DNA of 64,000 nt from Astrocystis sublimbata (lineage: Eukaryota; Ascomycota; Sordariomycetes; Xylariales; Xylariaceae): the NCBI GenBank assembly GCA_022453515.1, contig JAJNNY010000041.1:268435-332434 (forward strand). Reading direction: 5' to 3'. Below are positions 26,730 through 64,000 of the stretch, one piece after another. Made by a program: the position numbers and the translations under genes. Each line of letters begins with the position of its first letter. Within the stretch, counting starts at the first letter, position 1. The notes beneath the pieces were generated by a model. The model was not told where the DNA came from. It saw only the letters and a list, made by a program, of their open reading frames with translations, and ran no database searches.

Positions 26730-27295
26730 CATATTGGAACTGCTGGTATCAGAGCTGGACGGACGGTGGACGCTGGAGGCGTCGAGGTGGTTCGATTTTG
26801 CAGAGATGCCTTCATGCAGGTGGGACGAGCGCATCATCGCAGAGTGAGTGCGCAAATACCGATCTATTGTCCAGTGTGTTTGGCACCGTAGAAACGTCTC
26901 TAAAAACTTTGTAAATTGAGCCCGTTGGGCTGATGGCACGTCATTGACACTAAAAGTCACGGACAGACGTTGCTTGGTCGCGTGGGGATCGTGGCCACAG
27001 TTACTCGTGCACCTCTCGCTGGCTACTTAGGTACCTACCTACGCTGTGCTTCGGGCCTGGGAAGGGCGCGAGGCCCCTATACAGATATGCTTCAGAGCTT
27101 ACCTACCTAGGTAGGTAATAGGTGTATACAATACCTCCTCGTCTACGAACCACTAAAAACCAAGAGATCAAACTCAACTGTATGAATCAGCTGATATTCA
27201 ACACCCGTGGCAATAGGCACCGTATGGGAGTGCCAGGACTAATTAATTAAATACAAACATAGCCCCAAGCTCAGCCCCTCAACCAAAACTATAGA

Positions 27296-28663
27296 TTAGA
27301 CGTCGGGGTTATTGTTAGAGTTGATCCTAATGTCTTTATCCACCCGGATGGAATGAAGTGGAATATCACTGTCAGTCGCATCTTCAGGAGAGCCCCTTTT
27401 CGCATGGGCGCGATAGTTATCCGGCATCGGTGTGAGATTCAGTATTTCCTGCCTACTGCCATCGGAGATGCGGCTTTCGAACTCTGCAGGAGAAGCACGT
27501 CTTTTCGAAGCGTCAGTCGTATTCGGGCCACTATCTCCATACGTGTTATTGTCACTCGTAGAGAAGTTGCCGCTTTTGCTTCTCAGGAAGCTATGACTCC
27601 CGAAACGAGAGAGAATGCTCCAAGCTGGCTCCATGTAGTGGTGGACCAAGTGACGACCTAGAGGGAGCATGGCAGGTAGACACAAGCATATTATACTGAT
27701 CGCGGGCTCCGCGTTAACCCAGAAAAAGAGGACCGGGGACTCCCCTGGATTGTGTTAGCATAATCACATCTCCAATGGATAGAGGAGCGTGGCTTTGCGT
27801 ACAGGTAGGGTCCGTGTTGAGGTTATTTCCGATTTTGACAACATTCACGAGCCGGCCGATAGAAACAATAATGACACTTGCTCGTAATTTAGGTCAGTCT
27901 TCGCAGTTCGAGTCTAGTTTGGATTGGTGGCATACGCGTATCCGAGGATGAAGACAACCAGCAGTCCAAGCTTCCTCTTCCAGTTGGTATGAAGGCGTAA
28001 GACTTTGGGTAGAGGTGTGAGAAGAATGAGAAAATCGATTATTACGCTCGGGATCGCGCTTCCTAGGAAGAGATCCAGCGTTGACCCACAGGTTCCCTCT
28101 AGGAATGGATTCCAGCCTTTCTGTACGGGATCGCAGAAGAAGATGGTCCCGAAGTATGCACCAATCAGCCAGCCGGTGTTGAGGAAGTAACATGTCCATA
28201 GTGCGATATTAAACCACATCGAATTGGCTCGTCGCGGGAATACGCGAGAGAGGAACAGTAGACCAGAGAACTTGGTGACCGTTAAAGCAGTGTCGAAGAC
28301 GAAATCGTCAACGAACTGCAAAGTCGCATACAGCAGTACTTGGTCATTTGATAGAGTTCCGAAGTGCCGACCAAAGCCGGCTCTATGTATCATGACAATC
28401 TCGATGGCTATTTGTACCAAGAGAAGAATCTTGACCCCACGTCAGCTGCCAGATAGAGAAGCTAAACTTGGATGTAGGTTCAATACAGTTGAGGCCAGAG
28501 CAGCCCAGTCATCCCACCAAAATGTGCGTAGTTGGTTGCGTGGGCCTCGCAACGCAAGACTGCGTGACCAGAAACGCAGAGAAACCAACACCACTGTGAA
28601 AACGGCAACAAAAATGGAGAAGCTCTGGAGTGCGGGGCCCCGATTCTCGTCGCCGAGATCCAT
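27296..28663 (-). CDS. rhodopsin-domain (PTH11-like) integral membrane protein, left copy
   Basis: Model: complement(join(27296..27744, 27803..27876, 27936..28429, 28487..28663)), 397 aa, four exons, all in frame. It belongs to the large fungal family of seven-helix proteins with a rhodopsin-like domain, some of which (PTH11-like) act as surface sensors; the role here is unknown. Visible features are the first helix (FSIFVAVFTVVLVSLRFWSR), WWDDWAALAS, GFGRHFGTLS, VTKFSGLLFLSRVFP, CDPVQKGW with CGS, VIIVSIGRLVNVVKIGNN, WVNAEPAISIICLCLPAM and a hydrophilic Ser/Arg-rich tail. Introns of 57-59 nt have good CTGAC/GCTAAC branch points. It sits at the outer edge of the polyketide cluster, transcribed away from it. 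This copy is intact, unlike the right-arm copy. Confidence 0.85.
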
Positions 28664-29860
28664 TTTGCGAGTGGGCTTATCCGGGCTAGAGTTGGTGTTA
28701 GGAACCGGTCACTCGGACGCGGGAGCGAAATCGAACGATCGATGGACGCATGTGTAGGCGGTTGGGACACGCCGGAACGCCGCACTGTTATGACTAAAAT
28801 ACGTTATGAGCAGAGACCGGCTGTTTTCAAGATTTGTGATGTGAGACTTTGGCATCAAAAGTGATCTATTTTCGGCACACCTATTGCCTCCGTTCTGTGG
28901 TGGTGGGATGCGGACGAGCAAGGGCCGAAGGCTTTGGGAGCAACACGCCGAGTTTTCGTAGCCACAAGCTTACTAGACATATCTAGGCACGTATCCAACC
29001 AGGAGACAACCAGGAGATTAGAACACAATACCATACATAAGCGCAGCCTAGAGCGGAGGTTCGTCTAACATCATGCTAGCACTGGTGCCAGGGGGGTCGC
29101 GTGGTATTAGCCCTGGGATATGCGGGCATGCTGGCTGTGAAGAATCTCGCTTATCCTTGGATTCGTCATCTACTCTACCTAAAGAATTATGCCCGGTGCT
29201 CTTGTCGCTGCACGGGAATGAAACGTCGGAGTCAGTCTCACGCACCTACGGGGCTGCAACCGTCTTACACGCGTCTTGAGGACCTCGGAGCAGCCATGCT
29301 GACAGGTGTCTGTGGGGGGTTCAATTACTGTGAATCCTGCGGGGCTTAAAGCCGGGGATAAACAGGCATCGTCATGTCTGGCATCTAGTAAAAGGCAATG
29401 CAGGTGTACAGCACATATGCCGCTCACCGGCATCTATATGTATGTGACTCATGTCGTAGATTCCTATTGCGACGCAAGGTGACTGGGCTGGCACCCCCAA
29501 CTTCCCAGTACCTCCTACCCAAGCCTGCAGCAGGTTGTGATCCTCCTGAGAGGCGGGACAATGGCTGGCCAACTACCGAGATAAGCAGGCTAACAAGGGG
29601 TGTACAAGCAATCGAATCTTTACCAAAAAGCATCGGAAATGCAACGTTGGGGGTCAGGACTAAGGTGACCATCTCCTTTTAGAGCACAAGCATGCAGAAT
29701 CGCCTATTACGGCTCATTTGCCGTGTTGGGTGGGATGCATGCAGGATTTATCAGAGATAGAACGAAGACCAAAAAAAAAGTATGCATCTCTGTTTCGTCA
29801 CTACTCGAACTAGCCCTGTGTATATAGCTTCTCCGCCTTCAAGGTAATTGGATTGTCCGT
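28664..29860. other. intergenic, left arm
   Basis: About 1.2 kb between the rhodopsin-like gene and the CMD-like gene, both on the minus strand. No gene is recognised. A five-C run near 29,488-29,492 is one base longer than its partner in the right arm. Confidence 0.6.
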
Positions 29861-30572
29861 TTAAGAACCATGCATATTGTCCAAGGAGCGTGCATGATCC
29901 GTGGCAGGCGTTGCATTGTCTCCATTGAGGCGCGTTAGAAGGCAAGCCCACTGGTAGCCACCAACTATGTTGGCAACGGTGGTAATTTCCGTCCTGCTTA
30001 GCTTGGACGCATACTCCTGCCACGCCTCGTCGTCAACTGGCCCTTTCAAGCTTGCAAGATGGATACCCAGGCGGTATGCTGACGCTTCTTTCTCACTGAG
30101 ACTCCGCGACAATCTACCTCCCAATGCGTGCTCAATTTCATCCTGTGTCAAACCCGCCCTGGGACCAAGAAGTCGGCGGCAGTATGTCATGTAGGGCTCT
30201 TTCACCACAGACAAGTATGCAAAGACGACAAGCTGGCGAGTGCGCGAAGGGACTTTGTTGAAGGCTTTTTGATACAGATCGAAGACGATCGGAGCAAGGT
30301 CCATAGTGTAACTGACTAAGATGTTAGTTGATATTGATAGATACGGGGTCTGGTAGGTAGGAAGGTGTCGATGAGACAACTGATATGCTATCGTTGGGGG
30401 GTAGAGCGGTGGCAATGCAATACCTCATCGGCCCAAGCCAGCCTAACATGGCGTCCTCATTTTCGTCTAGAACCGGAAAAGGCAGAGGTCCATGAAACTC
30501 TTGCATGAGTTCTTGCATAGTATGGCCAGCGTTGGCATCAGGTGCAGCATCTAGAGGGTATCGAGGAGCCAT
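29861..30572 (-). CDS. carboxymuconolactone decarboxylase/AhpD-like protein, left copy
   Basis: Model: complement(join(29861..30311, 30424..30572)), 199 aa, one 112-nt intron (GTATTG donor, ACTAAC branch point) that joins LGWLGPM to SYTMDLAPIVFDLY. The fold is recognised from the order of blocks: an N-terminal GPLPFPVL, then VPSRTRQLVVFAYLSV, a region with EPYMTYCRRLL (the usual active-site Cys area), AGLTQDEIEHAL, and a terminal NIVGGYQWACLL helix. Related fungal proteins act as small decarboxylases, hydrolases or isomerases in polyketide and terpenoid pathways. The canonical CxxC pair of AhpD is absent; only one Cys occurs in the expected area, so peroxidase activity is unlikely. It is divergent from the FAD monooxygenase, sharing a 241-bp promoter. 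Confidence 0.75.
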
Positions 30573-30813
30573 GGGTGCTTGGTGCGTGGTTGCAAAGATA
30601 GACTACCTAGGGAATTCGAGCTTGGAGCCCAGTCGGCCTTAAATAATCATGGCACCTACCTTCCGGTCTCCAGTAGGTGCTGATACTGCAATATACTTTC
30701 TTGTTCACAAAATTTGCCTCGCTGTTGTGCTTTTACCTCCCTTGGCACAGGTTTTGTCTGCAGACGGCTGAGCTGAGCGCTAAGATCACCCCTTTCTGCT
30801 TGCTCCTCACACA
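30573..30813. promoter_or_regulatory. divergent promoter, CMD-like / FAD monooxygenase (left)
   Basis: Only 241 bp separate the two start codons, so both genes must be driven from this stretch. Such a shared promoter usually means co-regulation within a fungal gene cluster. I could not assign a specific activator site. Confidence 0.6.
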
Positions 30814-32177
30814 ATGTCCAGCTTGGCGCAAGATGCATGTGTTAGTCGACGGGTTATCATTGTCAGTACAGTCCCAGTCGGCGGACATGCGTATTAGTAA
30901 CTGAGGCAACATAGGTGGGCGGCTCGATTGCTGGTCTCATGTGTGGCCTCTTGTTGAAACATGTGGGTTGCGATGTAGAAGTCCTCGAGCAGGATGGCGA
31001 TGATCGCAAGAGTCATATGGCGGGTATAGCAATGGGACCGAATGTTATGGATTTACTCCGCGACCACGACCGCTTGACGAAACCGTTCACCTACGAGATC
31101 GACGGTCTCCAAAGCCTCGACACTAGCAGCAAGCCCGGGAGGATCGTCGCAACTGGCAGAAGGGAGATCACAAGCTGGGACGCGCTGTACTACCGCCTGC
31201 GGTCTAACTTTGATGGACGGGTGAGCGCGTACTACCCACAACCCCCCGAAGCTGATATAATGGACGGCACAGCCGTCTATCATTCTCATACGAGAGTACT
31301 GGATGTTGGGCGAGCGGACGCGTCGGACGCTCGCCTAACCGTGACGTCGCTCGATCGCCATACAAATGCGGTCTCAGAACGAAAAGCAGATCTTGTGATT
31401 GGTGCCGACGGTGCCGACTCCATGATCAGAGCCAAATACCAGCCTGCAGTGCAACGTCGGTATGCAGGATATGTGGTATGGAGGGGCACAGTTCAAGAAG
31501 CACATCTTTCCGCCACAACATTGAAGGCGGTCGCACACTCGGCCACCAATCACGCAATGGACCGACATCACATAATTGTGTACATCATTCCGGGGAAGGA
31601 TGGTTCGCTGCAGGCGGGCAAACGCCTCGTCAACTTTTGCTGGTACACCAACGAAACCCCAGAGTCCCTCGATGACATCCTGAGGGATCGGATTGACGGG
31701 CATCGGCATCGCAACACTGTGCCTGCTGGGAGAGTCAAAGAAAGTGCCTGGGAGGCTCGCTTGAAGCATGCCAGAGCGGTGCGGCTTCCGCCAGCATTGC
31801 TTGAGATCGTCGAGCAGATCCAAGAACCGTTCATCCAGGTCATCAGTGAATTCTTCTCACCCAGGGGTGTTTTCGAGGACGGCCAGGTACTCCTGATGGG
31901 CGATGCGCTGACCCTGGTTCGTCCACACGCAGGGCTCAGCAGTGCCAAGTCGGCCTTCCACTCGCGGGCCATCGAAGACTTCGTCCGCGGCAAACTATCA
32001 GTGCAAGAGTGGGAAACGAGTGTGCTGAGGTATTCTTACCGCGACAAATTGATGGGTGTGTATTGGGGGACGTTTTATCAGGGGAGTATGTCCCAGGCCA
32101 TCATCTCCGGCGCGCATTACTGGGCCTACAGCGCTTGGTACAGGTTCGCGTCGTGGATGGGGAGTCGGAGTAGCTAA
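30814..32177 (+). CDS. FAD-dependent monooxygenase, left copy
   Basis: Model: join(30814..30861, 30915..32177), 436 aa. A 53-nt intron (GTCAGT...ATAG) splits the FAD-binding fold, and splicing yields RRVIIVGGSIAGLMCGLLL, the GxGxxG dinucleotide motif, starting near residue 12. The family's second motif is DLVIGADGADSMIR (about residue 180), and the third FAD motif is VLLMGDALTLVRPHAG (about residue 345). These are group A flavoprotein hydroxylases that use NADPH and oxygen to hydroxylate or epoxidise aromatic or polyketide substrates. The start at 30814 (MSSLAQDAC) puts the motif at the usual distance from the N-terminus. Lack of a C-terminal membrane anchor suggests a soluble enzyme. It is probably a tailoring step after the PKS; the substrate is unknown. 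Confidence 0.85.
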
Positions 32178-32685
32178 TGTTAACGTCGGGCGGGAAAAGC
32201 TCGCCAGTTTGAGACGAATGTGACGAGATGCTGCAAGTACTTCAGAAGTAGGTAATAATAAGCACCTACTTAGTAGACCTAGTTGTACAGTAAGGGTTCG
32301 GTCGTTGAATAACCAATCAAACGACAGCCCTTGCAGGATGTCAGGGCAGTGAGCTGCTGGATTTCCAGGAGAAGACCCCTACTGACTGTCAGCTATGTGC
32401 TAGGATGTCTGTCATATAGGTGTAGTTATTCGGAGCTGCATACTCAATTTACCTACCTACATACCTGGTAGACTTGAACTTGGTGGGCGAGCGAATTCCG
32501 ATGCCGATAGTCACCGGCAGCACAATCGCTTCTTTGCGCTTTGTTTACAGCCGTTGAGTATGCTTCCTTTGAGTGAAATCTAGAGGAATAAACTTCCGTT
32601 TTCTTCAAGTCTTGCCATCGTAATTGTCCCCTGCCATTCAACTTCTCCGTCGATTTCAGCGAAACAGAAACGTCAACATCGCAAC
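32178..32685. other. short intergenic between FAD monooxygenase and GMC oxidase
   Basis: 508 bp between two co-directional genes; no gene is seen. It should contain the terminator of the first gene and the promoter of the second. Confidence 0.6.
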
Positions 32686-34649
32686 ATGGGGTTATACACC
32701 AAGCTGCCAGCTAACCTTGACGAGGTCGATGTGATCATCGTCGGCGGTGAGTATTAGGATGCATCACTCTACTCCATCTAGCAAACAGCTGATCGAGGAC
32801 CAGGTGGCTGCTCGGGATGTATTATAGCTAGTCGCCTTGCAGATGCTGATCCCCAATTGTCTATACTCGTTATCGAAAGCGGCACAAACAATAAGGGCTT
32901 GCCAGTGGTTGACCATGTTAGCGTTTGGCTTAATCACGTCCTCCCCGGCAATCCACACGCGAAACTCTTTCATGGTCCCAAATCGGATCTTCTTGCTGGT
33001 CGCCAAGCTACTGTTCCCGTTGGCCACATACTCGGCGGAGGTACCTCAATCAATTCACTGTTCTACAGTCGACCACAGCGATCCGACTATGAATCCTGGA
33101 ACACACCGGGATGGTCTCCCGAAGATCTCCTTCCATATATGAAGAAGGTATGCTGTGTTCGTACGCTTGGGTAGAATGAGGGAGTTAGATTAGCTAATGA
33201 TTGTCAAGTTCGAAACATATATCGGCCCGGGGCCAAAGGATATGCATGGGCACAATGGCCCCATGCAGGTATCTGGAGGCCCTTTCCGAAGCCATCGACT
33301 TGAAGACGGCTTTATCACTGCCATGGAAACTGTGGGGTGGCCGGAAGTCGATGATATCAATTGCTTTGGGTCAAACAATGGATCTATGCGTCTTTTGAAA
33401 TACATGAGTCCAGAGGGCCAGCGTCAGGACACGGCCACCATCTACCTACACCCCCGCCTGGAAGGTGGGCAACACCCCAATCTGCACGTCCTAGTGGAAT
33501 CGCAGGTCGAGCGTGTCTTGTTTGAAGGCACGAGGGCCGTTGGTGTTTCTTTCCGATTGAACCCAGACTTTCATCCAGATCCGGGCTCGGACTCTATACG
33601 AGAAATCAGAGCACGGAGGCTCGTGACGATCACTGGGGGCTCCATGTTTTCACCTCTTATTCTGCAAAGATCCGGAATCGGTGAACCTGAAGTTCTGAAA
33701 AAGGCTGGGGTTCCTATTGTTGCCAACGTTCCTGGCGTTGGCGCTGACTATGAGGACCACAATACAATGATGTATCCCTACAGCTCGAACTTGAGGCCGG
33801 ATGAGACCTTGGACAGTCTCTATTCTGGCCGCACAAGCCTTGATGACATGATCGCGACAAAGCATGAGATGCTAAGCTACGGTGGCGTCGACGTTCAATC
33901 AAAAATAAGACCCACTGAAGCTGACGTGGAAGCTCTGGGACCAAAATTCAAGGCTGCATGGGGCAGAAGCTTCAAAGACATACCAGACAAACCTTTGGTG
34001 ATCATCTCACCTGTCGCATGGTATGTCAAACCTTTCCGTCCAGATATACAGCATATTGATAATATTTAGTTTTCCCGGTGACTCGAGTTTCCTGGGGCCC
34101 GGGCAATTCTTGACCTTGGTAACATTCACCTTGTATCCCTTCTCCCGCGGCCATCTCTATATCACCGGTCCCAAGATCGACGATCCTCTGGACTTCGATC
34201 CTGGACTGCTCTCTGATCCTGAAGACTTGGATGTGAAGCCCCACGTATGGATGTTCAAGAAGCAACGCGAGATCGCTCATCACATGGGTTTATGCCGAGA
34301 CCCTGTTCCCAGTACACAACCGACCTTTCCAGCTAACTCAAAAGCCAATCTCGATATCCCCAACCCTGAATATAGCGCAGAAGACGATGATATAATCGAA
34401 AATTGGATCCGGGAACGCATTAATTCCACTTGGCATCCTATCGGAACTTGCAAAATGGCACCGCGAGACAAACATGGTGTGGTTGATCCTGCGCTAAATG
34501 TTTACGGCGTCCAAAGCCTCAAGGTTGCTGACCTTAGTATTTCACCTCACAATGTTGGAGCGAACACGTCCAACACAGCTATGACGGTCGCCGAGAAGGC
34601 AGCCGATATCATTATCTCCGAGCTGGGTCTGGTCAAGAGAGAAAGGTAA
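32686..34649 (+). CDS. GMC-family oxidoreductase, left copy
   Basis: Model: join(32686..32746, 32804..33147, 33209..34020, 34070..34649), 598 aa, introns 49-61 nt, all in frame. Glucose-methanol-choline oxidoreductases are FAD enzymes that oxidise alcohols. The N-terminal FAD fold reads VDVIIVGGGCSGCIIASRLA (split by intron 1), followed by ILVIESG and the GMC signature around GHILGGGTSINSLFYSRP. The second signature is near GGSMFSPLILQRSGIG. The C-terminal catalytic blocks are HPIGTCKM and NVGANTSNTAM. There is no signal peptide, so it is intracellular, unlike secreted aryl-alcohol oxidases. The third junction gives a Cys (ACFPGDSS) and has a usable but plain acceptor. It is probably a tailoring oxidase of the polyketide product. 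Confidence 0.88.
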
Positions 34650-36075
34650 TTGTGTAGATAAGGAGTGCTGAGGGAGTGGGGGGCTGGTCATTCGTACACC
34701 TCCCTACCTAGGTTAAGTACTAGAGGCAACGACATTGGTTGGATAGGCTGATATTATGGATTATGGTTACTCCTCAATCCTGATTTTATTATTTTCTACT
34801 CTCTACTCAAATCTCTGAAATAAGAATACCAACACTCGTTAAACATGGCAGCCTTCCCTACTTCATTACCGAGACGTGATTTTTCTTGTCGTCTCCGAAT
34901 GAAGGTTCGGCTTCTACCATGCGAATACTGTGCCCGGTGATTGTTCTTAGGTTCGTTAGTTCGATGACGATTATTATAATTATGAAGTATTTCAATCAAA
35001 TATACCTAGTATTAGATGTCAAAATTTCGCTGGTGCCATTACAGGGGCCAGGAGTAAGTACCTAGTAGGTAAGTGCTATGCTTCATGCATTGCTACCCCA
35101 CGAAAAACATGATGTATGTTGCGGCTTTGGACACGAAGGTTACATTTCCAGATTTTCCGACTTCTGGGACACCCCACTCACTCTCTTCGTCGTTTCGTCG
35201 CATGTAGCCAACGCCGTATCAAATAGTTTAATTATGAAGCCACTTTTCTGTAGATCTCATCCTTCTCGCATCTACTTCCTTTTTCAAACACAAATGCACC
35301 GAAGGAGGCAAGGCATACAAACTACTGCATTCCAACTGGCCCGTCTAACGTTCTCCCCTTTGGGCCAATATGCATCAACTTCCTCCAACTTCCTCCAACA
35401 CACACAACAGAACCCAATACTACCTGCAGATGCTCAGTGAGATCCGAAGCAACACCATAGGGACTTTGCTAGTTTCATCTAACCCGCCCTGTGATATGGA
35501 GAAACCCCGTAGATTGGCAGTGCCAATGATGAACACATTCGTGGTAAAGTCGGTATCACGTCACACATAGCTGTGAACGAAGGGGCGGTGAAAGTAGTAG
35601 ATGGGGGGTAGTACGAGTCAGAGTAGAGGTGCATGCAAACACATAATGTCTCATTAATTGATGCAGTATGGGCATATGCCGCAAGCTTGAGGCATTACCC
35701 AAACAAACAAACCCCTGACGTGAGACGATACACACGCAAACTCAACATTACTTTGTTTAGGATCTACTCTCCGGAATGTATTACCCGAAGGTGCACGAGA
35801 CAGCCGTTTTTGCGAGCGGCTAGTAGCCGAATTAGACTTCATTGCCTGGATCAGTGCATGGCAGTAAGAAATATGAGCTTTGTTCTAGATATAAATATCA
35901 TAACCTTCCTATTACATCAGAGCTTCCCTCCGATAATAACTCGTCAAGCAAACTAAATATTCCTTGAAGTGATAGGACTGGTTATGTACTGCTAAGAGCC
36001 TCCCGCTATAATCGCTCGAGCTGGTCATGTCTTCCCACTTATCATGATAAAGTGTATCATATCTGACGAACCAGC
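34650..36075. other. intergenic before the PKS, left arm
   Basis: 1.4 kb with no convincing gene. Open frames such as 35,078-35,440 have no family resemblance. It should contain the PKS promoter. Confidence 0.55.
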
Positions 36076-39000
36076 ATGGATGATATTGGGAAGGGAGTTA
36101 ACGGTATCGACTGCTGTCGATCCGCCAAACACGCCTTGTCGTCGCCTCAGACATTGGGGTGCCTCAAATCCTCTGTTGATGCTCCTCTTGGCGCATCCTC
36201 GGACCCGTCCAGTTTGAATGCTGCATACCCAACAGGGCTCGATGGAAACGATGCAGACTCTGTTGCCATTTGTGGTTTCTCCATCAAATTCCCGGATGAT
36301 GCTACCACGGCAGAATGTCTCTGGAAAATTATTGTCGAACGACGATGTACCACAAAACAATTTCCTCCTAGCCGCATCAATTCGCAGGGCTTCTTTCACA
36401 GAAATAACCTACCAAATGCTGTATGTAACAGATTTTCATCTCCTATGACTAGCTTAACACGAATTCTTCAGGCTCAGCTGAAAATCCTTGATTTAGATGC
36501 CTATTCAAAGAGGTCACTTCATTGAGGAGGATTTGTCCCTCTTCGATGCAGACTTCTTCTCCATCTCTCCATCTGAAGCAAGTTCAATGGACCCGATGCA
36601 GCGATGGCTACTAGAGACAGTATATAGGGCCCTTGAAAATGGTAAATTATCTTTACTCTGAACTTGCGACATTCTTTAACTTGAGATTCAGCCGGCATCC
36701 CCATGGAACACGCCTATGGCTCATCGACTGCTGTATATACAGGGTCTTTTAGTATGGATCACGTGATACAGCTCTTCCACGACCCAGAAAATACGCCGAA
36801 GTATGCTGCACTTGGTATTGGACTAAGCATGTTGGCGAACCGACTGAGCTGGTTTTTCAATTTCAAAGGACCGAGCATCGGGATAGATACTGCTTGCTCC
36901 AGCAGCGCAGTGGGCATTGACTTGGCCTGTCAAGCATTACGGAATGGAAGTTGTGACATGGTGAGTTTTATCCTACATATCTGAATTTGGATCCTTGCTA
37001 CATAACTGAAACTGTTTGCTTATTCAACAAATAAATTAGGGCGTGGTTACCGGTTGTAATCTCACATTTTCCCCCGAATACTTCAAAATCCTGACAAACT
37101 TGAACTTTCTTTCACCAGACGGTAGATGCTACTCATTTGATCATCGCGCCAACGGATATGGACGAGGAGAGGGTATTGGCGTTATCGTTCTTAAAAGACT
37201 TGCTGATGCGGTTCGAGATGGCAACACGATCAGGGCGGTAATTCGTTCAACAGGCTCAAACGAAGATGGTCGCACCCAAGGTATTACCCAGCCCAGTAGC
37301 GCCGCCCAGGAACGGCTAATCTGCGAGACCTATAGACGAGCAGGTCTTTCAATGGCTCACACGCGATTTTTTGAGGCCCAGTACGTACCAAACATGCACA
37401 TCCTTTCCGCCCTTCTCTTCGCCTTATATTCTTCAATCGATCTTGGCTTCCAGTAGCAACGGACGAAAGGGAAACTTGGAGACATATACATTCGCAACCA
37501 CCCTGTCACAAACCCCTATAGCCTTTTCTGACTCCCCGTTCTGTAAAGTGGCACCGGCACACCCTTGGGAGACCCCTTGGAAGCTCGTGCAATCGGCAGA
37601 GCGTTTCGGGAGCATCGCACCGAGACGGATCCTATGTATATGTGAGTCAAGTAACTGACCCAACTTGAACTAGAGCTAATGAGTTTATAGAGGCGCTATC
37701 AAATCAAATATTGGCCATCTAGAGGGCGCCAGTGGTATAGCTGGTGTTATCAAGGCCGTTCTGGCACTAGAGAAGGGGCTTATCCCCCCTAATACCAACT
37801 TTGAACAACTCAACCCAAAGATAGAAATAGAGCAATACCCCATTAAGGTCAGTTTAGAGCCGCTTTTCCTTCCCGCAGTGTTTGTGCCAACAAATTTCTG
37901 TGACGGTTCCGTTGTGCTTGACGAACAGCTTTAACTAATTGTAATTTTGATAGTTTCCCCAACATTGCCAGTCGTGGCCAACTCCAGGCCTGCGTCGAGC
38001 ATCAGTTAACTCATTTGGCTATGGTGGAGCCAACTGCCACATAGTTCTGGATGATGCGTACAATTTTCTAAGTTTGAGAAATTTGCCAGGAAGACACTGT
38101 TCAGTTGCCACACCACCTTCTATTCAACCCGAGCAGAGCTCCAACTGTATAGATGGGAGCAAAAGTCTGACTAATGGTGAGGATCATATTCAAACACCTA
38201 AGCTACTTGTTTGGTCAGCAGCAGACAAGGAAGGATTGGGTCGGATTGCCAGATCATACGAGAATTTCTCGCCTTCTGCCCAAACAAAAGCTCATTTCCT
38301 CGAAAACCTTGCATTCACGTTAGTCAGTGGACGCAGCCGACTCCCATGGACCTCATTCGCTGTCATAAGCTCCTTGGCTGAACTGCGCGCCTTGGGGCCA
38401 AAACTCTCGTTGCCAGTACAGCGCTCAGCACGGAGTCCACAGCTTGGTTATGTATTCACCGGCCAAGGTGCACAGTGGTTCGCAATGGGCAGGCAACTGA
38501 TGTTCTATACAATTTTCGAAGCAGATATAAGCCGGGCGAATGGTTATTTGAAGTCACTGGGATGTTCATGGTCCGTTACAGGTGAGTAGAAGCTTTCCTC
38601 TCCTTGCCGAGTGGTATCTAAGATATTTTAGATGAGTTGCTCAGAAGCGAGCACGAGACTCGAATTCACGATCCAGAGCTCAGTCAGACACTTTGCACAG
38701 TCATACAAGTTGCCATGGTGAACCTTTTGAGGAGCTTTGACGTTCGCCCTTCCGCCGTGGTTGGTCATTCATCTGGCGAGATTGTAGCTGGGTATGAGTA
38801 CCGGTCTCGCACCGTACGCCCCTAGATTCTAGATGCTAATTCATGATAGATACGCTGGAGGCATGTTATCGGCCGAGTCCGCATGGAAGTTAGCTTATTT
38901 TCGAGGTGTATGCTCAGCAAAATTGTCGTCGTCCCAACCTCAGGGAACGATGCTAGCCGTCAATGCATCAAAAAGCTCCATTGAAGAGATTGTTGCCTCT

Positions 39001-44777: not shown

Positions 44778-45951
44778 GTGCGTAGCTGCGAAAAGGGCGC
44801 CTGTTTATGAGAGGCTTGGACCAGCTTCATTTGCTGCCATGATCTGATTACTGTAGACTTTCATATGTATCCGAAGACATTATTGAACATGACTCACTTG
44901 CACAAAAAGCATGAATGATTTTGTCATATCTGTACAGGCCTTCGGACTGCGTGAATTGAATCAGTTCCAACCGTTGAGCTACTTGGGCGCTTGTGTGCCT
45001 ACTGTAGTGGGAGATTGAGGGGGGTCATAAGGCTTGTTGGTCTTTTGGAAGGGTAATAAGGCTTCCGAAATCCACAACGCTTCCCGATTCTATAACGCTT
45101 CTGGACCTAGGGGTAGTTCTGTACTAAAATAATAAGGGGAGGTATATCCGTAGTGGTATAGGGCATAGCTGTTAGAAATATAGGCAATCAAGCACTATAG
45201 TTTAGATTTACGAATTTAAAGGTATACGGAGGTACGTATAGAAGGTACGAAGTAGAATAATTGTAGAAATGGAAGGCTTATCGAACTTAGAGAAAAATCT
45301 CTTTTGTTAAACCTATACTTTCTTCTTGTGCTTTTTATATACAATATATATGTATAGTATATATATACAATATATATATATATATAGTATATAAAAAGCA
45401 CAAGAAGAAAGTATAGGTTTAACAAAAGAGATTTTTCTCTAAGTTCGATAAGCCTTCCATTTCTACAATTATTCTACTTCGTACCTTCTATACGTACCTC
45501 CGTATACCTTTAAATTCGTAAATCTAAACTATAGTGCTTGATTGCCTATATTTCTAACAGCTATGCCCTATACCACTACGGATATACCTCCCCTTATTAT
45601 TTTAGTACAGAACTACCCCTAGGTCCAGAAGCGTTATAGAATCGGGAAGCGTTGTGGATTTCGGAAGCCTTATTACCCTTCCAAAAGACCAACAAGCCTT
45701 ATGACCCCCCTCAATCTCCCACTACAGTAGGCACACAAGCGCCCAAGTAGCTCAACGGTTGGAACTGATTCAATTCACGCAGTCCGAAGGCCTGTACAGA
45801 TATGACAAAATCATTCATGCTTTTTGTGCAAGTGAGTCATGTTCAATAATGTCTTCGGATACATATGAAAGTCTACAGTAATCAGATCATGGCAGCAAAT
45901 GAAGCTGGTCCAAGCCTCTCATAAACAGGCGCCCTTTTCGCAGCTACGCAC
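44778..45951. other. AT-rich region between the tail-to-tail PKS copies
   Basis: No gene. From about 45,050 inward the DNA becomes AT-rich with TATA/TAATA steps, resembling RIP-eroded repeat DNA of filamentous fungi. The palindrome centre lies in the middle. Confidence 0.7.
45343..45386. repeat. palindrome centre, AT dinucleotide tract
   Basis: Perfect pairing of the arms reaches 45,342/45,387. The central 44 bp is almost pure A/T, mostly alternating AT, and 16 of its 22 mirrored pairs still match. The palindrome therefore has effectively no spacer and turns around inside an AT microsatellite. Confidence 0.9.
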
Positions 45952-54653: not shown

Positions 54654-56079
54654 GCTGGTTCGTCAGATATGATACACTTTATCATGATAAGTGGGAAGAC
54701 ATGACCAGCTCGAGCGATTATAGCGGGAGGCTCTTAGCAGTACATAACCAGTCCTATCACTTCAAGGAATATTTAGTTTGCTTGACGAGTTATTATCGGA
54801 GGGAAGCTCTGATGTAATAGGAAGGTTATGATATTTATATCTAGAACAAAGCTCATATTTCTTACTGCCATGCACTGATCCAGGCAATGAAGTCTAATTC
54901 GGCTACTAGCCGCTCGCAAAAACGGCTGTCTCGTGCACCTTCGGGTAATACATTCCGGAGAGTAGATCCTAAACAAAGTAATGTTGAGTTTGCGTGTGTA
55001 TCGTCTCACGTCAGGGGTTTGTTTGTTTGGGTAATGCCTCAAGCTTGCGGCATATGCCCATACTGCATCAATTAATGAGACATTATGTGTTTGCATGCAC
55101 CTCTACTCTGACTCGTACTACCCCCCATCTACTACTTTCACCGCCCCTTCGTTCACAGCTATGTGTGACGTGATACCGACTTTACCACGAATGTGTTCAT
55201 CATTGGCACTGCCAATCTACGGGGTTTCTCCATATCACAGGGCGGGTTAGATGAAACTAGCAAAGTCCCTATGGTGTTGCTTCGGATCTCACTGAGCATC
55301 TGCAGGTAGTATTGGGTTCTGTTGTGTGTGTTGGAGGAAGTTGGAGGAAGTTGATGCATATTGGCCCAAAGGGGAGAACGTTAGACGGGCCAGTTGGAAT
55401 GCAGTAGTTTGTATGCCTTGCCTCCTTCGGTGCATTTGTGTTTGAAAAAGGAAGTAGATGCGAGAAGGATGAGATCTACAGAAAAGTGGCTTCATAATTA
55501 AACTATTTGATACGGCGTTGGCTACATGCGACGAAACGACGAAGAGAGTGAGTGGGGTGTCCCAGAAGTCGGAAAATCTGGAAATGTAACCTTCGTGTCC
55601 AAAGCCGCAACATACATCATGTTTTTCGTGGGGTAGCAATGCATGAAGCATAGCACTTACCTACTAGGTACTTACTCCTGGCCCCTGTAATGGCACCAGC
55701 GAAATTTTGACATCTAATACTAGGTATATTTGATTGAAATACTTCATAATTATAATAATCGTCATCGAACTAACGAACCTAAGAACAATCACCGGGCACA
55801 GTATTCGCATGGTAGAAGCCGAACCTTCATTCGGAGACGACAAGAAAAATCACGTCTCGGTAATGAAGTAGGGAAGGCTGCCATGTTTAACGAGTGTTGG
55901 TATTCTTATTTCAGAGATTTGAGTAGAGAGTAGAAAATAATAAAATCAGGATTGAGGAGTAACCATAATCCATAATATCAGCCTATCCAACCAATGTCGT
56001 TGCCTCTAGTACTTAACCTAGGTAGGGAGGTGTACGAATGACCAGCCCCCCACTCCCTCAGCACTCCTTATCTACACAA
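54654..56079. other. intergenic before the PKS, right arm
   Basis: Mirror of 34,650-36,075; no gene recognised. Confidence 0.55.
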
Positions 56080-58043
56080 TTACCTTTCTCTCTTGACCAG
56101 ACCCAGCTCGGAGATAATGATATCGGCTGCCTTCTCGGCGACCGTCATAGCTGTGTTGGACGTGTTCGCTCCAACATTGTGAGGTGAAATACTAAGGTCA
56201 GCAACCTTGAGGCTTTGGACGCCGTAAACATTTAGCGCAGGATCAACCACACCATGTTTGTCTCGCGGTGCCATTTTGCAAGTTCCGATAGGATGCCAAG
56301 TGGAATTAATGCGTTCCCGGATCCAATTTTCGATTATATCATCGTCTTCTGCGCTATATTCAGGGTTGGGGATATCGAGATTGGCTTTTGAGTTAGCTGG
56401 AAAGGTCGGTTGTGTACTGGGAACAGGGTCTCGGCATAAACCCATGTGATGAGCGATCTCGCGTTGCTTCTTGAACATCCATACGTGGGGCTTCACATCC
56501 AAGTCTTCAGGATCAGAGAGCAGTCCAGGATCGAAGTCCAGAGGATCGTCGATCTTGGGACCGGTGATATAGAGATGGCCGCGGGAGAAGGGATACAAGG
56601 TGAATGTTACCAAGGTCAAGAATTGCCCGGGCCCCAGGAAACTCGAGTCACCGGGAAAACTAAATATTATCAATATGCTGTATATCTGGACGGAAAGGTT
56701 TGACATACCATGCGACAGGTGAGATGATCACCAAAGGTTTGTCTGGTATGTCTTTGAAGCTTCTGCCCCATGCAGCCTTGAATTTTGGTCCCAGAGCTTC
56801 CACGTCAGCTTCAGTGGGTCTTATTTTTGATTGAACGTCGACGCCACCGTAGCTTAGCATCTCATGCTTTGTCGCGATCATGTCATCAAGGCTTGTGCGG
56901 CCAGAATAGAGACTGTCCAAGGTCTCATCCGGCCTCAAGTTCGAGCTGTAGGGATACATCATTGTATTGTGGTCCTCATAGTCAGCGCCAACGCCAGGAA
57001 CGTTGGCAACAATAGGAACCCCAGCCTTTTTCAGAACTTCAGGTTCACCGATTCCGGATCTTTGCAGAATAAGAGGTGAAAACATGGAGCCCCCAGTGAT
57101 CGTCACGAGCCTCCGTGCTCTGATTTCTCGTATAGAGTCCGAGCCCGGATCTGGATGAAAGTCTGGGTTCAATCGGAAAGAAACACCAACGGCCCTCGTG
57201 CCTTCAAACAAGACACGCTCGACCTGCGATTCCACTAGGACGTGCAGATTGGGGTGTTGCCCACCTTCCAGGCGGGGGTGTAGGTAGATGGTGGCCGTGT
57301 CCTGACGCTGGCCCTCTGGACTCATGTATTTCAAAAGACGCATAGATCCATTGTTTGACCCAAAGCAATTGATATCATCGACTTCCGGCCACCCCACAGT
57401 TTCCATGGCAGTGATAAAGCCGTCTTCAAGTCGATGGCTTCGGAAAGGGCCTCCAGATACCTGCATGGGGCCATTGTGCCCATGCATATCCTTTGGCCCC
57501 GGGCCGATATATGTTTCGAACTTGACAATCATTAGCTAATCTAACTCCCTCATTCTACCCAAGCGTACGAACACAGCATACCTTCTTCATATATGGAAGG
57601 AGATCTTCGGGAGACCATCCCGGTGTGTTCCAGGATTCATAGTCGGATCGCTGTGGTCGACTGTAGAACAGTGAATTGATTGAGGTACCTCCGCCGAGTA
57701 TGTGGCCAACGGGAACAGTAGCTTGGCGACCAGCAAGAAGATCCGATTTGGGACCATGAAAGAGTTTCGCGTGTGGATTGCCGGGGAGGACGTGATTAAG
57801 CCAAACGCTAACATGGTCAACCACTGGCAAGCCCTTATTGTTTGTGCCGCTTTCGATAACGAGTATAGACAATTGGGGATCAGCATCTGCAAGGCGACTA
57901 GCTATAATACATCCCGAGCAGCCACCTGGTCCTCGATCAGCTGTTTGCTAGATGGAGTAGAGTGATGCATCCTAATACTCACCGCCGACGATGATCACAT
58001 CGACCTCGTCAAGGTTAGCTGGCAGCTTGGTGTATAACCCCAT
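56080..58043 (-). CDS. GMC-family oxidoreductase, right copy
   Basis: Model: complement(join(56080..56659, 56709..57520, 57582..57925, 57983..58043)), 598 aa. Exact mirror of the left copy with the same exon lengths, FAD fold, GMC signatures and C-terminal HPIGTCKM / NTSNTAM blocks. Intact, with no difference seen. Confidence 0.87.
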
Positions 58044-58551
58044 GTTGCGATGTTGACGTTTCTGTTTCGCTGAAATCGACGGAGAAGTTGAATGGCAGGG
58101 GACAATTACGATGGCAAGACTTGAAGAAAACGGAAGTTTATTCCTCTAGATTTCACTCAAAGGAAGCATACTCAACGGCTGTAAACAAAGCGCAAAGAAG
58201 CGATTGTGCTGCCGGTGACTATCGGCATCGGAATTCGCTCGCCCACCAAGTTCAAGTCTACCAGGTATGTAGGTAGGTAAATTGAGTATGCAGCTCCGAA
58301 TAACTACACCTATATGACAGACATCCTAGCACATAGCTGACAGTCAGTAGGGGTCTTCTCCTGGAAATCCAGCAGCTCACTGCCCTGACATCCTGCAAGG
58401 GCTGTCGTTTGATTGGTTATTCAACGACCGAACCCTTACTGTACAACTAGGTCTACTAAGTAGGTGCTTATTATTACCTACTTCTGAAGTACTTGCAGCA
58501 TCTCGTCACATTCGTCTCAAACTGGCGAGCTTTTCCCGCCCGACGTTAACA
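58044..58551. other. short intergenic, right arm
   Basis: Mirror of 32,178-32,685; no gene seen. Confidence 0.6.
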
Positions 58552-59915
58552 TTAGCTACTCCGACTCCCCATCCACGACGCGAACCTGTACCAAGCGCTG
58601 TAGGCCCAGTAATGCGCGCCGGAGATGATGGCCTGGGACATACTCCCCTGATAAAACGTCCCCCAATACACACCCATCAATTTGTCGCGGTAAGAATACC
58701 TCAGCACACTCGTTTCCCACTCTTGCACTGATAGTTTGCCGCGGACGAAGTCTTCGATGGCCCGCGAGTGGAAGGCCGACTTGGCACTGCTGAGCCCTGC
58801 GTGTGGACGAACCAGGGTCAGCGCATCGCCCATCAGGAGTACCTGGCCGTCCTCGAAAACACCCCTGGGTGAGAAGAATTCACTGATGACCTGGATGAAC
58901 GGTTCTTGGATCTGCTCGACGATCTCAAGCAATGCTGGCGGAAGCCGCACCGCTCTGGCATGCTTCAAGCGAGCCTCCCAGGCACTTTCTTTGACTCTCC
59001 CAGCAGGCACAGTGTTGCGATGCCGATGCCCGTCAATCCGATCCCTCAGGATGTCATCGAGGGACTCTGGGGTTTCGTTGGTGTACCAGCAAAAGTTGAC
59101 GAGGCGTTTGCCCGCCTGCAGCGAACCATCCTTCCCCGGAATGATGTACACAATTATGTGATGTCGGTCCATTGCGTGATTGGTGGCCGAGTGTGCGACC
59201 GCCTTCAATGTTGTGGCGGAAAGATGTGCTTCTTGAACTGTGCCCCTCCATACCACATATCCTGCATACCGACGTTGCACTGCAGGCTGGTATTTGGCTC
59301 TGATCATGGAGTCGGCACCGTCGGCACCAATCACAAGATCTGCTTTTCGTTCTGAGACCGCATTTGTATGGCGATCGAGCGACGTCACGGTTAGGCGAGC
59401 GTCCGACGCGTCCGCTCGCCCAACATCCAGTACTCTCGTATGAGAATGATAGACGGCTGTGCCGTCCATTATATCAGCTTCGGGGGGTTGTGGGTAGTAC
59501 GCGCTCACCCGTCCATCAAAGTTAGACCGCAGGCGGTAGTACAGCGCGTCCCAGCTTGTGATCTCCCTTCTGCCAGTTGCGACGATCCTCCCGGGCTTGC
59601 TGCTAGTGTCGAGGCTTTGGAGACCGTCGATCTCGTAGGTGAACGGTTTCGTCAAGCGGTCGTGGTCGCGGAGTAAATCCATAACATTCGGTCCCATTGC
59701 TATACCCGCCATATGACTCTTGCGATCATCGCCATCCTGCTCGAGGACTTCTACATCGCAACCCACATGTTTCAACAAGAGGCCACACATGAGACCAGCA
59801 ATCGAGCCGCCCACCTATGTTGCCTCAGTTACTAATACGCATGTCCGCCGACTGGGACTGTACTGACAATGATAACCCGTCGACTAACACATGCATCTTG
59901 CGCCAAGCTGGACAT
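58552..59915 (-). CDS. FAD-dependent monooxygenase, right copy
   Basis: Model: complement(join(58552..59814, 59868..59915)), 436 aa. Mirror of the left copy, with the same intron splitting the FAD-binding motif and the same DGADSM and GDALTLV motifs. Intact. Confidence 0.84.
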
Positions 59916-60156
59916 TGTGTGAGGAGCAAGCAGAAAGGGGTGATCTTAGCGCTCAGCTCAGCCGTCTGCAGACAAAACCTGTGCCAAGGGAGGTAAAAGC
60001 ACAACAGCGAGGCAAATTTTGTGAACAAGAAAGTATATTGCAGTATCAGCACCTACTGGAGACCGGAAGGTAGGTGCCATGATTATTTAAGGCCGACTGG
60101 GCTCCAAGCTCGAATTCCCTAGGTAGTCTATCTTTGCAACCACGCACCAAGCACCC
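59916..60156. promoter_or_regulatory. divergent promoter, CMD-like / FAD monooxygenase (right)
   Basis: Mirror of the 241-bp shared promoter at 30,573-30,813. Confidence 0.6.
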
Positions 60157-60868
60157 ATGGCTCCTCGATACCCTCTAGATGCTGCACCTGATGCCAACGC
60201 TGGCCATACTATGCAAGAACTCATGCAAGAGTTTCATGGACCTCTGCCTTTTCCGGTTCTAGACGAAAATGAGGACGCCATGTTAGGCTGGCTTGGGCCG
60301 ATGAGGTATTGCATTGCCACCGCTCTACCCCCCAACGATAGCATATCAGTTGTCTCATCGACACCTTCCTACCTACCAGACCCCGTATCTATCAATATCA
60401 ACTAACATCTTAGTCAGTTACACTATGGACCTTGCTCCGATCGTCTTCGATCTGTATCAAAAAGCCTTCAACAAAGTCCCTTCGCGCACTCGCCAGCTTG
60501 TCGTCTTTGCATACTTGTCTGTGGTGAAAGAGCCCTACATGACATACTGCCGCCGACTTCTTGGTCCCAGGGCGGGTTTGACACAGGATGAAATTGAGCA
60601 CGCATTGGGAGGTAGATTGTCGCGGAGTCTCAGTGAGAAAGAAGCGTCAGCATACCGCCTGGGTATCCATCTTGCAAGCTTGAAAGGGCCAGTTGACGAC
60701 GAGGCGTGGCAGGAGTATGCGTCCAAGCTAAGCAGGACGGAAATTACCACCGTTGCCAACATAGTTGGTGGCTACCAGTGGGCTTGCCTTCTAACGCGCC
60801 TCAATGGAGACAATGCAACGCCTGCCACGGATCATGCACGCTCCTTGGACAATATGCATGGTTCTTAA
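60157..60868 (+). CDS. carboxymuconolactone decarboxylase/AhpD-like protein, right copy
   Basis: Model: join(60157..60305, 60418..60868), 199 aa. Mirror of the left copy with the same single 112-nt intron; intact. It is the last gene in the right arm before sequence differences between the arms begin (the first is at 61,231). Confidence 0.74.
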
Positions 60869-62064
60869 ACGGACAATCCAATTACCTTGAAGGCGGAGAA
60901 GCTATATACACAGGGCTAGTTCGAGTAGTGACGAAACAGAGATGCATACTTTTTTTTTGGTCTTCGTTCTATCTCTGATAAATCCTGCATGCATCCCACC
61001 CAACACGGCAAATGAGCCGTAATAGGCGATTCTGCATGCTTGTGCTCTAAAAGGAGATGGTCACCTTAGTCCTGACCCCCAACGTTGCATTTCCGATGCT
61101 TTTTGGTAAAGATTCGATTGCTTGTACACCCCTTGTTAGCCTGCTTATCTCGGTAGTTGGCCAGCCATTGTCCCGCCTCTCAGGAGGATCACAACCTGCT
61201 GCAGGCTTGGGTAGGAGGTACTGGGAAGTTGGGGTGCCAGCCCAGTCACCTTGCGTCGCAATAGGAATCTACGACATGAGTCACATACATATAGATGCCG
61301 GTGAGCGGCATATGTGCTGTACACCTGCATTGCCTTTTACTAGATGCCAGACATGACGATGCCTGTTTATCCCCGGCTTTAAGCCCCGCAGGATTCACAG
61401 TAATTGAACCCCCCACAGACACCTGTCAGCATGGCTGCTCCGAGGTCCTCAAGACGCGTGTAAGACGGTTGCAGCCCCGTAGGTGCGTGAGACTGACTCC
61501 GACGTTTCATTCCCGTGCAGCGACAAGAGCACCGGGCATAATTCTTTAGGTAGAGTAGATGACGAATCCAAGGATAAGCGAGATTCTTCACAGCCAGCAT
61601 GCCCGCATATCCCAGGGCTAATACCACGCGACCCCCCTGGCACCAGTGCTAGCATGATGTTAGACGAACCTCCGCTCTAGGCTGCGCTTATGTATGGTAT
61701 TGTGTTCTAATCTCCTGGTTGTCTCCTGGTTGGATACGTGCCTAGATATGTCTAGTAAGCTTGTGGCTACGAAAACTCGGCGTGTTGCTCCCAAAGCCTT
61801 CGGCCCTTGCTCGTCCGCATCCCACCACCACAGAACGGAGGCAATAGGTGTGCCGAAAATAGATCACTTTTGATGCCAAAGTCTCACATCACAAATCTTG
61901 AAAACAGCCGGTCTCTGCTCATAACGTATTTTAGTCATAACAGTGCGGCGTTCCGGCGTGTCCCAACCGCCTACACATGCGTCCATCGATCGTTCGATTT
62001 CGCTCCCGCGTCCGAGTGACCGGTTCCTAACACCAACTCTAGCCCGGATAAGCCCACTCGCAAA
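60869..62064. other. intergenic, right arm
   Basis: Mirror of 28,664-29,860 with one G missing from the homopolymer at 61,231-61,234. No gene recognised. Confidence 0.6.
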
Positions 62065-63434
62065 ATGGATCTCGGCGACGAGAATCGGGGCCCCGCACTC
62101 CAGAGCTTCTCCATTTTTGTTGCCGTTTTCACAGTGGTGTTGGTTTCTCTGCGTTTCTGGTCACGCAGTCTTGCGTTGCGAGGCCCACGCAACCAACTAC
62201 GCACATTTTGGTGGGATGACTGGGCTGCTCTGGCCTCAACTGTATTGAACCTACATCCAAGTTTAGCTTCTCTATCTGGCAGCTGACGTGGGGTCAAGAT
62301 TCTTCTCTTGGTACAAATAGCCATCGAGATTGTCATGATACATAGAGCCGGCTTTGGTCGGCACTTCGGAACTCTATCAAATGACCAAGTACTGCTGTAT
62401 GCGACTTTGCAGTTCGTTGACGATTTCGTCTTCGACACTGCTTTAACGGTCACCAAGTTCTCTGGTCTACTGTTCCTCTCTCGCGTATTCCCGCGACGAG
62501 CCAATTCGATGTGGTTTAATATCGCACTATGGACATGTTACTTCCTCAACACCGGCTGGCTGATTGGTGCATACTTCGGGACCATCTTCTTCTGCGATCC
62601 CGTACAGAAAGGCTGGAATCCATTCCTAGAGGGAACCTGTGGGTCAACGCTGGATCTCTTCCTAGGAAGCGCGATCCCGAGCGTAATAATCGATTTTCTC
62701 ATTCTTCTCACACCTCTACCCAAAGTCTTACGCCTTCATACCAACTGGAAGAGGAAGCTTGGACTGCTGGTTGTCTTCATCCTCGGATACGCGTATGCCA
62801 CCAATCCAAACTAGACTCGAACTGCGAAGACTGACCTAAATTACGAGCAAGTGTCATTATTGTTTCTATCGGCCGGCTCGTGAATGTTGTCAAAATCGGG
62901 AAATAACCTCAACACGGACCCTACCTGTACGCAAAGGCCACGCTCCTCTATCCATTGGAGATGTGATTATGCTAACACAATCCAGGGGAGTCCCCGTCCT
63001 CTTTTTCTGGGTTAACGCGGAGCCCGCGATCAGTATAATATGCTTGTTGTCTACCTGCCATGCTCCCTCTAGGTCGTCACTTGGTCCACCACTACATGGA
63101 GCCAGCTTGGAGCATTCTCTCTCGTTTCGGGAGTCATAGCTTCCTGAGAAGCAAAAGCGGCAACTTCTCTACGAGTGACAATAACACGTATGGAGATAGT
63201 GGCCCGAATACGACTGACGCTTCGAAAAGACGTGCTTCTCCTGCAGAGTTCGAAAGCCGCATCTCCGATGGCAGTAGGCAGGAAATACTGAATCTCACAC
63301 CGATGCCGGATAACTATCGCGCCCATGCGAAAAGGGGCTCTCCTGAAGATGCGACTGACAGTGATATTCCACTTCATTCCATCCGGGTGGATAAAGACAT
63401 TAGGATCAACTCTAACAATAACCCCGACGTCTAA
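62065..63434 (+). pseudogene. rhodopsin-domain membrane protein, right copy, frameshifted
   Basis: Mirror of the intact left gene (exon equivalents 62065..62241, 62299..62792, 62852..62926, 62986..63434). Three single-base changes fall in coding sequence. An extra G near 62,899 turns KIGNN into KIG followed by a stop one codon later. A missing G near 62,995 shifts the start of exon 4, and an extra T near 63,046 shifts it back. A fourth, extra G near 62,937 lies in the intron. The left version reads cleanly through all three sites, so the right version is the wrong or decayed one. Homopolymer-type indels packed this tightly look more like consensus errors than natural decay, because no substitutions accompany them in the frames compared. 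Confidence 0.8.
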
Positions 63435-64000
63435 TCTATAGTTTTGGTTGAGGGGCTGAGCTTGGGGCTATGTTTGTATTTAATTAATTAGTCCTGGCAC
63501 TCCCATACGGTGCCTATTGCCACGGGTGTTGAATATCAGCTGATTCATACAGTTGAGTTTGATCTCTTGGTTTTTAGTGGTTCGTAGACGAGGAGGTATT
63601 GTATACACCTATTACCTACCTAGGTAGGTAAGCTCTGAAGCATATCTGTATAGGGGCCTCGCGCCCTTCCCAGGCCCGAAGCACAGCGTAGGTAGGTACC
63701 TAAGTAGCCAGCGAGAGGTGCACGAGTAACTGTGGCCACGATCCCCACGCGACCAAGCAACGTCTGTCCGTGACTTTTAGTGTCAATGACGTGCCATCAG
63801 CCCAACGGGCTCAATTTACAAAGTTTTTAGAGACGTTTCTACGGTGCCAAACACACTGGACAATAGATCGGTATTTGCGCACTCACTCTGCGATGATGCG
63901 CTCGTCCCACCTGCATGAAGGCATCTCTGCAAAATCGAACCACCTCGACGCCTCCAGCGTCCACCGTCCGTCCAGCTCTGATACCAGCAGTTCCAATATG
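63435..64000. other. end of window, still palindromic
   Basis: Mirror of 26,730-27,295, including the TACCTACCTAGGTAGGTA motif near 63,612-63,630. No gene is recognised. Confidence 0.7.

Follow-up and report, generated by a model that had tools for sequence, protein, structure and literature searches.

The DNA described here is a stretch of 64,000 nucleotides from the fungus Astrocystis sublimbata, called the window below. It covers bases 268,435-332,434 of contig C126, in an assembly of 42.6 Mb and 189 contigs. Positions 26,730-64,000 of the window form a single inverted repeat, in which a polyketide synthase gene and its neighbours are found once on each arm. The dyad lies between 45,364 and 45,365, as located by comparing the window with its own minus strand using the nucleotide Basic Local Alignment Search Tool (BLASTN).

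The palindrome

The original prediction, made from the letters alone, described a palindrome of more than 37 kb at 26,730-64,000, and the minus strand comparison bears this out. It returns one match, 26,730-64,000 to 64,000-26,730, with 99.946% identity over 37,280 columns, 2 mismatches and 16 gap openings. This figure takes in both arms, which means that each difference between the arms is counted twice. A near-perfect palindrome of 37 kb is not chance.

The left arm measures 18,635 bases and the right arm 18,636. Arms of "at least 18.6 kb" had been proposed; the size is right, but the bound is only there because C126 stops at that point. Window position 64,000 is the final base of the contig (332,434 bp), and beyond the palindrome there is no unique outer right flank.

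The arms were also aligned directly against each other. Over 15.85 kb, from 29,495 to 45,342 on the left arm, there are zero differences. Five single-base indels are found at left positions 27,681, 27,733, 27,792, 27,828 and 29,494, all in the outermost 2.8 kb, and every one of them is a base more or less in a run of 1-5 identical bases. The other differences are six mismatched positions within an AT tract of about 44 bp at the centre. The earlier statement that there is effectively no spacer is therefore nearly right, except for this imperfect TA tract. Mirrored coordinates were likewise said to sum to 90,729 everywhere. Starting at left position 29,495 and moving towards the centre this holds, as it does in two brief outer segments. 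Because of the five indels, the sum is 90,728 across 27,829-29,494; it is 90,730 across 27,734-27,792 and at the outer end.

Genes had been predicted to occur twice. The recurrence holds and goes further: nine open reading frames of at least 150 amino acids were taken from the left arm, and 9/9 were found again in the right arm at the same lengths. Features are collected in Table 1.

Table 1 Features of the palindrome, in window coordinates.
Feature	Position	Strand	Basis or remark
Left arm	26730..45364	+	Joined to unique contig sequence on its left; judged genuine single-copy genomic sequence
Right arm	45365..64000	-	Reverse complement of left arm up to last base of C126; judged spurious
Centre of symmetry	45343..45386	.	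Imperfect AT-rich (TA)n tract; sole non-mirrored part of inner palindrome
Right-arm stretch with all five single-base indels relative to left arm	61235..63048	-	Arm alignment
Dispersed repeat, first ~0.36 kb	45000..45364	+	Copies on C1, C115, C142
Fungal rhodopsin-domain membrane protein, part	27914..28420	-	Domain match
FAD (flavin adenine dinucleotide)-dependent monooxygenase-like protein	30915..32177	+	PF22607, PF01494
GMC oxidoreductase	33197..34649	+	N- and C-terminal domains, two reading frames
Highly reducing polyketide synthase gene, left-arm copy	36076..44774	+	Domains; predicted protein P0001
Polyketide synthase gene, mirror image in right arm	45955..54653	-	Open reading frame comparison of arms

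Genes on the arm

From the outside in, an arm carries part of a rhodopsin-domain protein, a frame resembling carboxymuconolactone decarboxylase, the FAD monooxygenase-like gene, the GMC oxidoreductase and the polyketide synthase. The decarboxylase-like frame is a weak match, with an E-value of 0.008 that does not reach the family's cut-off. The polyketide synthase has acyltransferase, dehydratase, methyltransferase, ketoreductase and carrier domains, and ends about 590 bases short of the dyad.

Among 8,000 candidates scored, being those that share most words with it, the best match to the polyketide synthase frame is the Astrocystis sublimbata protein P0001. Of the 2,444 residues of this protein, all except 23 lie inside exact runs of the translated gene, exon by exon. 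P0001 is listed with two member sequences on one contig, which would fit two annotated mirror copies. This proves nothing, however, since other listed proteins also have two members. Relatives at 77-80% identity come from three Xylaria species and one Nemania among the matches listed. A plasmid collection searched with the polyketide synthase DNA gave zero matches, as expected.

The Pfam domains listed for P0001 do not include PF08240 or PF00107, and some other listed polyketide synthases do carry them. These are alcohol dehydrogenase-type families, those of the enoyl reductase.

All in all this is an ordinary-looking fungal cluster, and no reason was found to think that the chromosome has two copies of it.

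Mirrored tips at other contig ends

Tips were taken from 40 contig starts and 20 contig ends, three of which were unusable (one reads N, two are telomere repeat). The outermost 120-400 bases of 56 tips were searched against the assembly, and the end of C126 was judged from the self-comparison above, for a total of 57. A tip was called mirrored if it has an opposite-orientation copy on its own contig.

With the C126 end included, 11/57 tips are mirrored. These are the ends of C126, C132, C1 (at 98%), C40, C100, C127 and C189, and the starts of C20, C126, C135 and C168. Some contigs in the sample were chosen partly for having turned up in previous searches, and mirrored telomere repeats on C132 had come to light before the tip test; leaving out C132 and the C126 end gives 9/55. 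Three of the searches scored the best 40 of 48, 40 of 114 and 40 of 49 candidates, which makes their negatives less sure. Thirteen AT-rich tips gave no near-identical mirror copy (among the best 40 of 114 and of 49 candidates). The end of C60 has an 86% inverted match of about 130 bases and was left out of the mirrored count.

The smallest arm implied by the tip positions is about 1.2 kb (C100) and the largest 18.6 kb (the C126 end), with C132 at 18.5 kb. The palindromes other than that of the window were judged by their tips; centres were read for 9/11, and whole arms were compared for both C126 ends only.

The tips bear directly on the reading that the window holds a true chromosomal inverted duplication. 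In that case, a break in the AT-rich tract would have been followed by fold-back repair, producing a duplication of at least 18.6 kb whose outer junction lies beyond the contig end, unassembled. The identity of the arms over 15.85 kb is what a very recent duplication would show, and the centre is a near-perfect, hairpin-prone TA tract, within a repeat that is uninterrupted there in three other copies. But the mirror stops precisely at the contig end, with no unique sequence beyond the right arm, and 10 further tips among those tested behave likewise; the centres read from them are unrelated in sequence. The differences between the arms are also not evenly spread: all of them lie at the centre or in the outermost 2.8 kb. 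A true duplication is judged very unlikely.

Several further observations were made on contig tips. C132:259224-296260 is a terminal palindrome; its tip positions put the arms at about 18.5 kb. Internal stretches of TTAGGG are mirrored in it, and the centre reads AAAAGGCCTTTT. C7:58824-61168 holds the start of C143 twice (99%), in opposite orientations and 2.3 kb apart, possibly another palindrome. For C189:1-400, the 130 bases printed are all N, and the A+T share of the full 400 is 0.0.

Some tips match another contig at 98-100%: C72/C90, C80/C77, C5/C153, C100/C182, C56/C1 and C69+C87/C126, of which only the C69/C87/C126 group was aligned. Going by these matches, redundant contigs may have been left in the assembly.

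An asymmetry between starts and ends, which could only come from the assembler, was considered and is not relied on. Ends are mirrored in 7/18 cases and starts in 4/39 (Fisher p 0.026). Without the C126 end and C132 this becomes 5/16 against 4/39 (p 0.10). Before AT-rich tips were added to the sample, the corresponding values were p 0.002 and 0.013.

Base composition of the fold centres

Eleven centres were read: those of nine mirrored tips, plus C87 and C182, with C135 and C168 left out. They are unlike one another in sequence, and have 72-95% A+T over 300 bases. As background, the maximum is 62% among 251 windows of C126; this background is a single contig, and the genome has AT-rich blocks elsewhere. 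BLAST aligns each of the 11 centres straight across, at 84-100% identity in 300 bp, so the spacers must be nil or a few tens of bases.

That 11/11 centres lie in AT-rich DNA also suits a second alternative, in which the palindromic molecules truly existed in the culture DNA. Broken ends at AT-rich fragile sites would then be capped by hairpins, in some nuclei or in the DNA preparation, and a minority form would have been assembled faithfully. Library preparation alone predicts the same pattern, however, and the lack of an outer flank together with the scatter of arms from about 1.2 to 18.6 kb resembles read lengths. This alternative is extremely unlikely in our estimate, and it leaves the verdict of one chromosomal cluster unchanged. 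A broader form of the idea is that AT-rich blocks break and heal by fold-back in the living mycelium, where some nuclei would hold hairpin-capped or inverted-duplicated pieces, some of them doubling biosynthetic clusters. That too is given very little credence.

A telomeric or hairpin chromosome end was tried as an explanation and rejected: the centre in the window is a TA tract without TTAGGG. Contig ends with TTAGGG repeats do occur, on C15 and C143 among the matches listed.

The other end of the contig

The left end of C126 is a second terminal palindrome, covering bases 1-2,658 at 99.1% identity. Two other contigs, C87 and C69, hold sequence that is 98.5-99.7% identical to this end. Bases 1-2,837 of C87 are palindromic too, but the fold is about 90 bp further on than in C126. 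C69 starts about 100 bases past the fold point of C126, and shows no inverted match in the first 3,000 of its 19,278 bases. Past the turning point of C126, C87 and C69 have matching sequence.

If these three are redundant contigs of one locus, then a moving fold point is what fold-back reads give, while a fixed rearrangement would have one junction. The fold point of this end of C126 is not shared by these near-identical contigs, which, if they do represent one locus, is a further argument against a true duplication. The shift of about 90 bp is also what heterogeneous broken ends would give, and to that extent it favours hairpin-capped molecules.

The centre and its dispersed repeat

The 365 bases ahead of the dyad are part of a dispersed repeat, to which the other copies show 75-90% similarity, with the exception of one 31-base exact piece. 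On C1, C115 and C142, the repeat runs uninterrupted through a CA/TA-rich tract into a common second half, and the copies of C1 and C142 align across 833 bases of C1. The copy in the window is truncated within its TA tract. About 320 bases of the second half, from each of the C1 and C115 copies, had no match in the window.

The real locus presumably goes on into the half that the window lacks. A truncation of this kind fits a fold at a hairpin-prone tract, be it in the cell, in the tube or in the assembler.

A third copy or an unfolded contig of the locus was looked for with window positions 44,000-46,500. The search returned just the two mirror copies and the diverged copies of the repeat. Longer queries of about 10 and 9 kb missed the window's own forward copy, and the 9 kb query missed the mirror copy too, which means that their silence on other contigs is no evidence. 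C10 was considered as the missing continuation and rejected, as the similarity near its start covers 120 bp at 90%, and no second half was seen by eye in its first 600 bases.

By eye, and without a count, a good many of the positions at which the window and C1 copies differ in the alignment resemble C/T or G/A changes, the pattern that repeat-induced point mutation would leave.

Interpretation

The palindrome is really in the deposited sequence, but with high confidence we regard it as an artefact of reads and assembly at a contig end, made from fold-back long reads. The events could have been as follows. The real locus would run on rightwards from about 45,342, across the AT-rich tract within the dispersed repeat, and it is in this tract that the assembly would have halted. 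The contig may then have been extended beyond this halt by one or more palindromic reads, each of which would go out on one strand, reverse within the AT tract through a hairpin or a template switch, and come back on the complementary strand. In this way the reverse complement of the previous 18.6 kb would be appended to the end of the contig. Candidate origins of the hairpin are snap-back end repair, a missed adapter and whole-genome amplification.

The artefact is favoured because the inverted repeat ends exactly at the last base of the contig, without a unique outer flank, and because mirrored tips recur at other contig ends. It is also favoured because near-identical contigs, which may represent the same locus, lack the fold point of the left end of C126, and because the centres are AT-rich, yet of differing sequence. 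Finally, the arm differences sit in the outer 2.8 kb and at the centre, with none in 15.85 kb. Sequencing noise gives differences clustered like this; a duplicate that diverges by mutation should differ evenly.

Of the two arms, the left is judged to be real and the right to be the spurious copy. The five indels are close to the contig end, the part with the lowest expected coverage. A left-arm frame across the indels has a weak match (E 0.053) to positions 212-234, at the end of the rhodopsin domain, and the two right-arm frames tested across them lack this match. Weakly, this frame comparison points to the left arm as the true one.

A number of things count against an artefact. That the reads were palindromic, and where the hairpin came from, we infer from the contigs. 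The identity of the inner arms over 15.85 kb is more than a single raw read would give; either a consensus or polishing step, or several reads that fold back at the same site, would be required. No mirror copy was found for 46/57 of the tested tips. At the other end of the contig, C69 and C87, with 98.5-99.7% identity, could be paralogues of recent origin, and C69 stops about 14 bases beyond the fold point of C87, so that the true continuation is not revealed. In addition, one survey reports virtually no fold-backs in HiFi and Mas-Seq data from Pacific Biosciences (PacBio), where the PacBio samples numbered only three, Iso-Seq included (PMC12870357).

The original prediction named two explanations, a duplication and an artefact, and held that the sequence alone could not decide between them. 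The rest of the assembly does speak clearly, for the artefact. The claim in the prediction's title that a whole cluster is duplicated, and the idea of a doubled dosage, are not supported. Most likely the cluster, a highly reducing polyketide synthase with its neighbours, is present once in the chromosome.

Usage notes

Palindromes at contig ends of this assembly make real genes appear twice, in this case an entire polyketide synthase with the genes beside it. Any survey based on the assembly would count too many gene clusters, gene duplications and inverted repeats. A simple check is to search for every contig tip, in inverted orientation, within the contig to which it belongs. The finding is useful as a warning on the assembly more than as biology, and the cluster should be counted once.

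Comparison with known systems

True inverted gene duplications that arise by fold-back repair have large inverted arms and a short AT-rich centre. Their arms are also both flanked by unique sequence, and they have a single fixed junction. The palindrome in the window differs from these in that a unique outer flank is not seen, nor is one fixed junction seen at the other end of C126.

A literature search by titles and the starts of abstracts found no paper on the Astrocystis sublimbata genome among those listed; two papers mention the species, and on the same basis neither deals with its genome. In the part of PMC12051294 consulted, "fold-back" refers to chromosome folding, which is another thing.

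The Pacasus paper (PMC6218980) describes an assembly of amplified DNA with numerous inverted duplications, which were no longer detected after palindromic reads had been split at their centre. Nothing points to amplification of the DNA in the present case, which differs from Pacasus in this respect; other routes to fold-back reads are open. The likeness is in palindromic reads leading to inverted duplications in an assembly.

Fold-back reads are the subject of Heinz, Meyerson and Li 2026 (PMC12870357). In their data such artefacts make up about 0.55-0.6% of Oxford Nanopore Technologies genomic reads and 0.03% of Iso-Seq reads. There is often little or no sequence between the two halves, and where sequence does intervene, simple repeats are enriched. 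That work concerns reads, whereas the trace here is in finished contigs with identical inner arms. What is shared is that the two strands, forward and reverse, are joined near-perfectly at a single breakpoint, and that this recurs in the same places.

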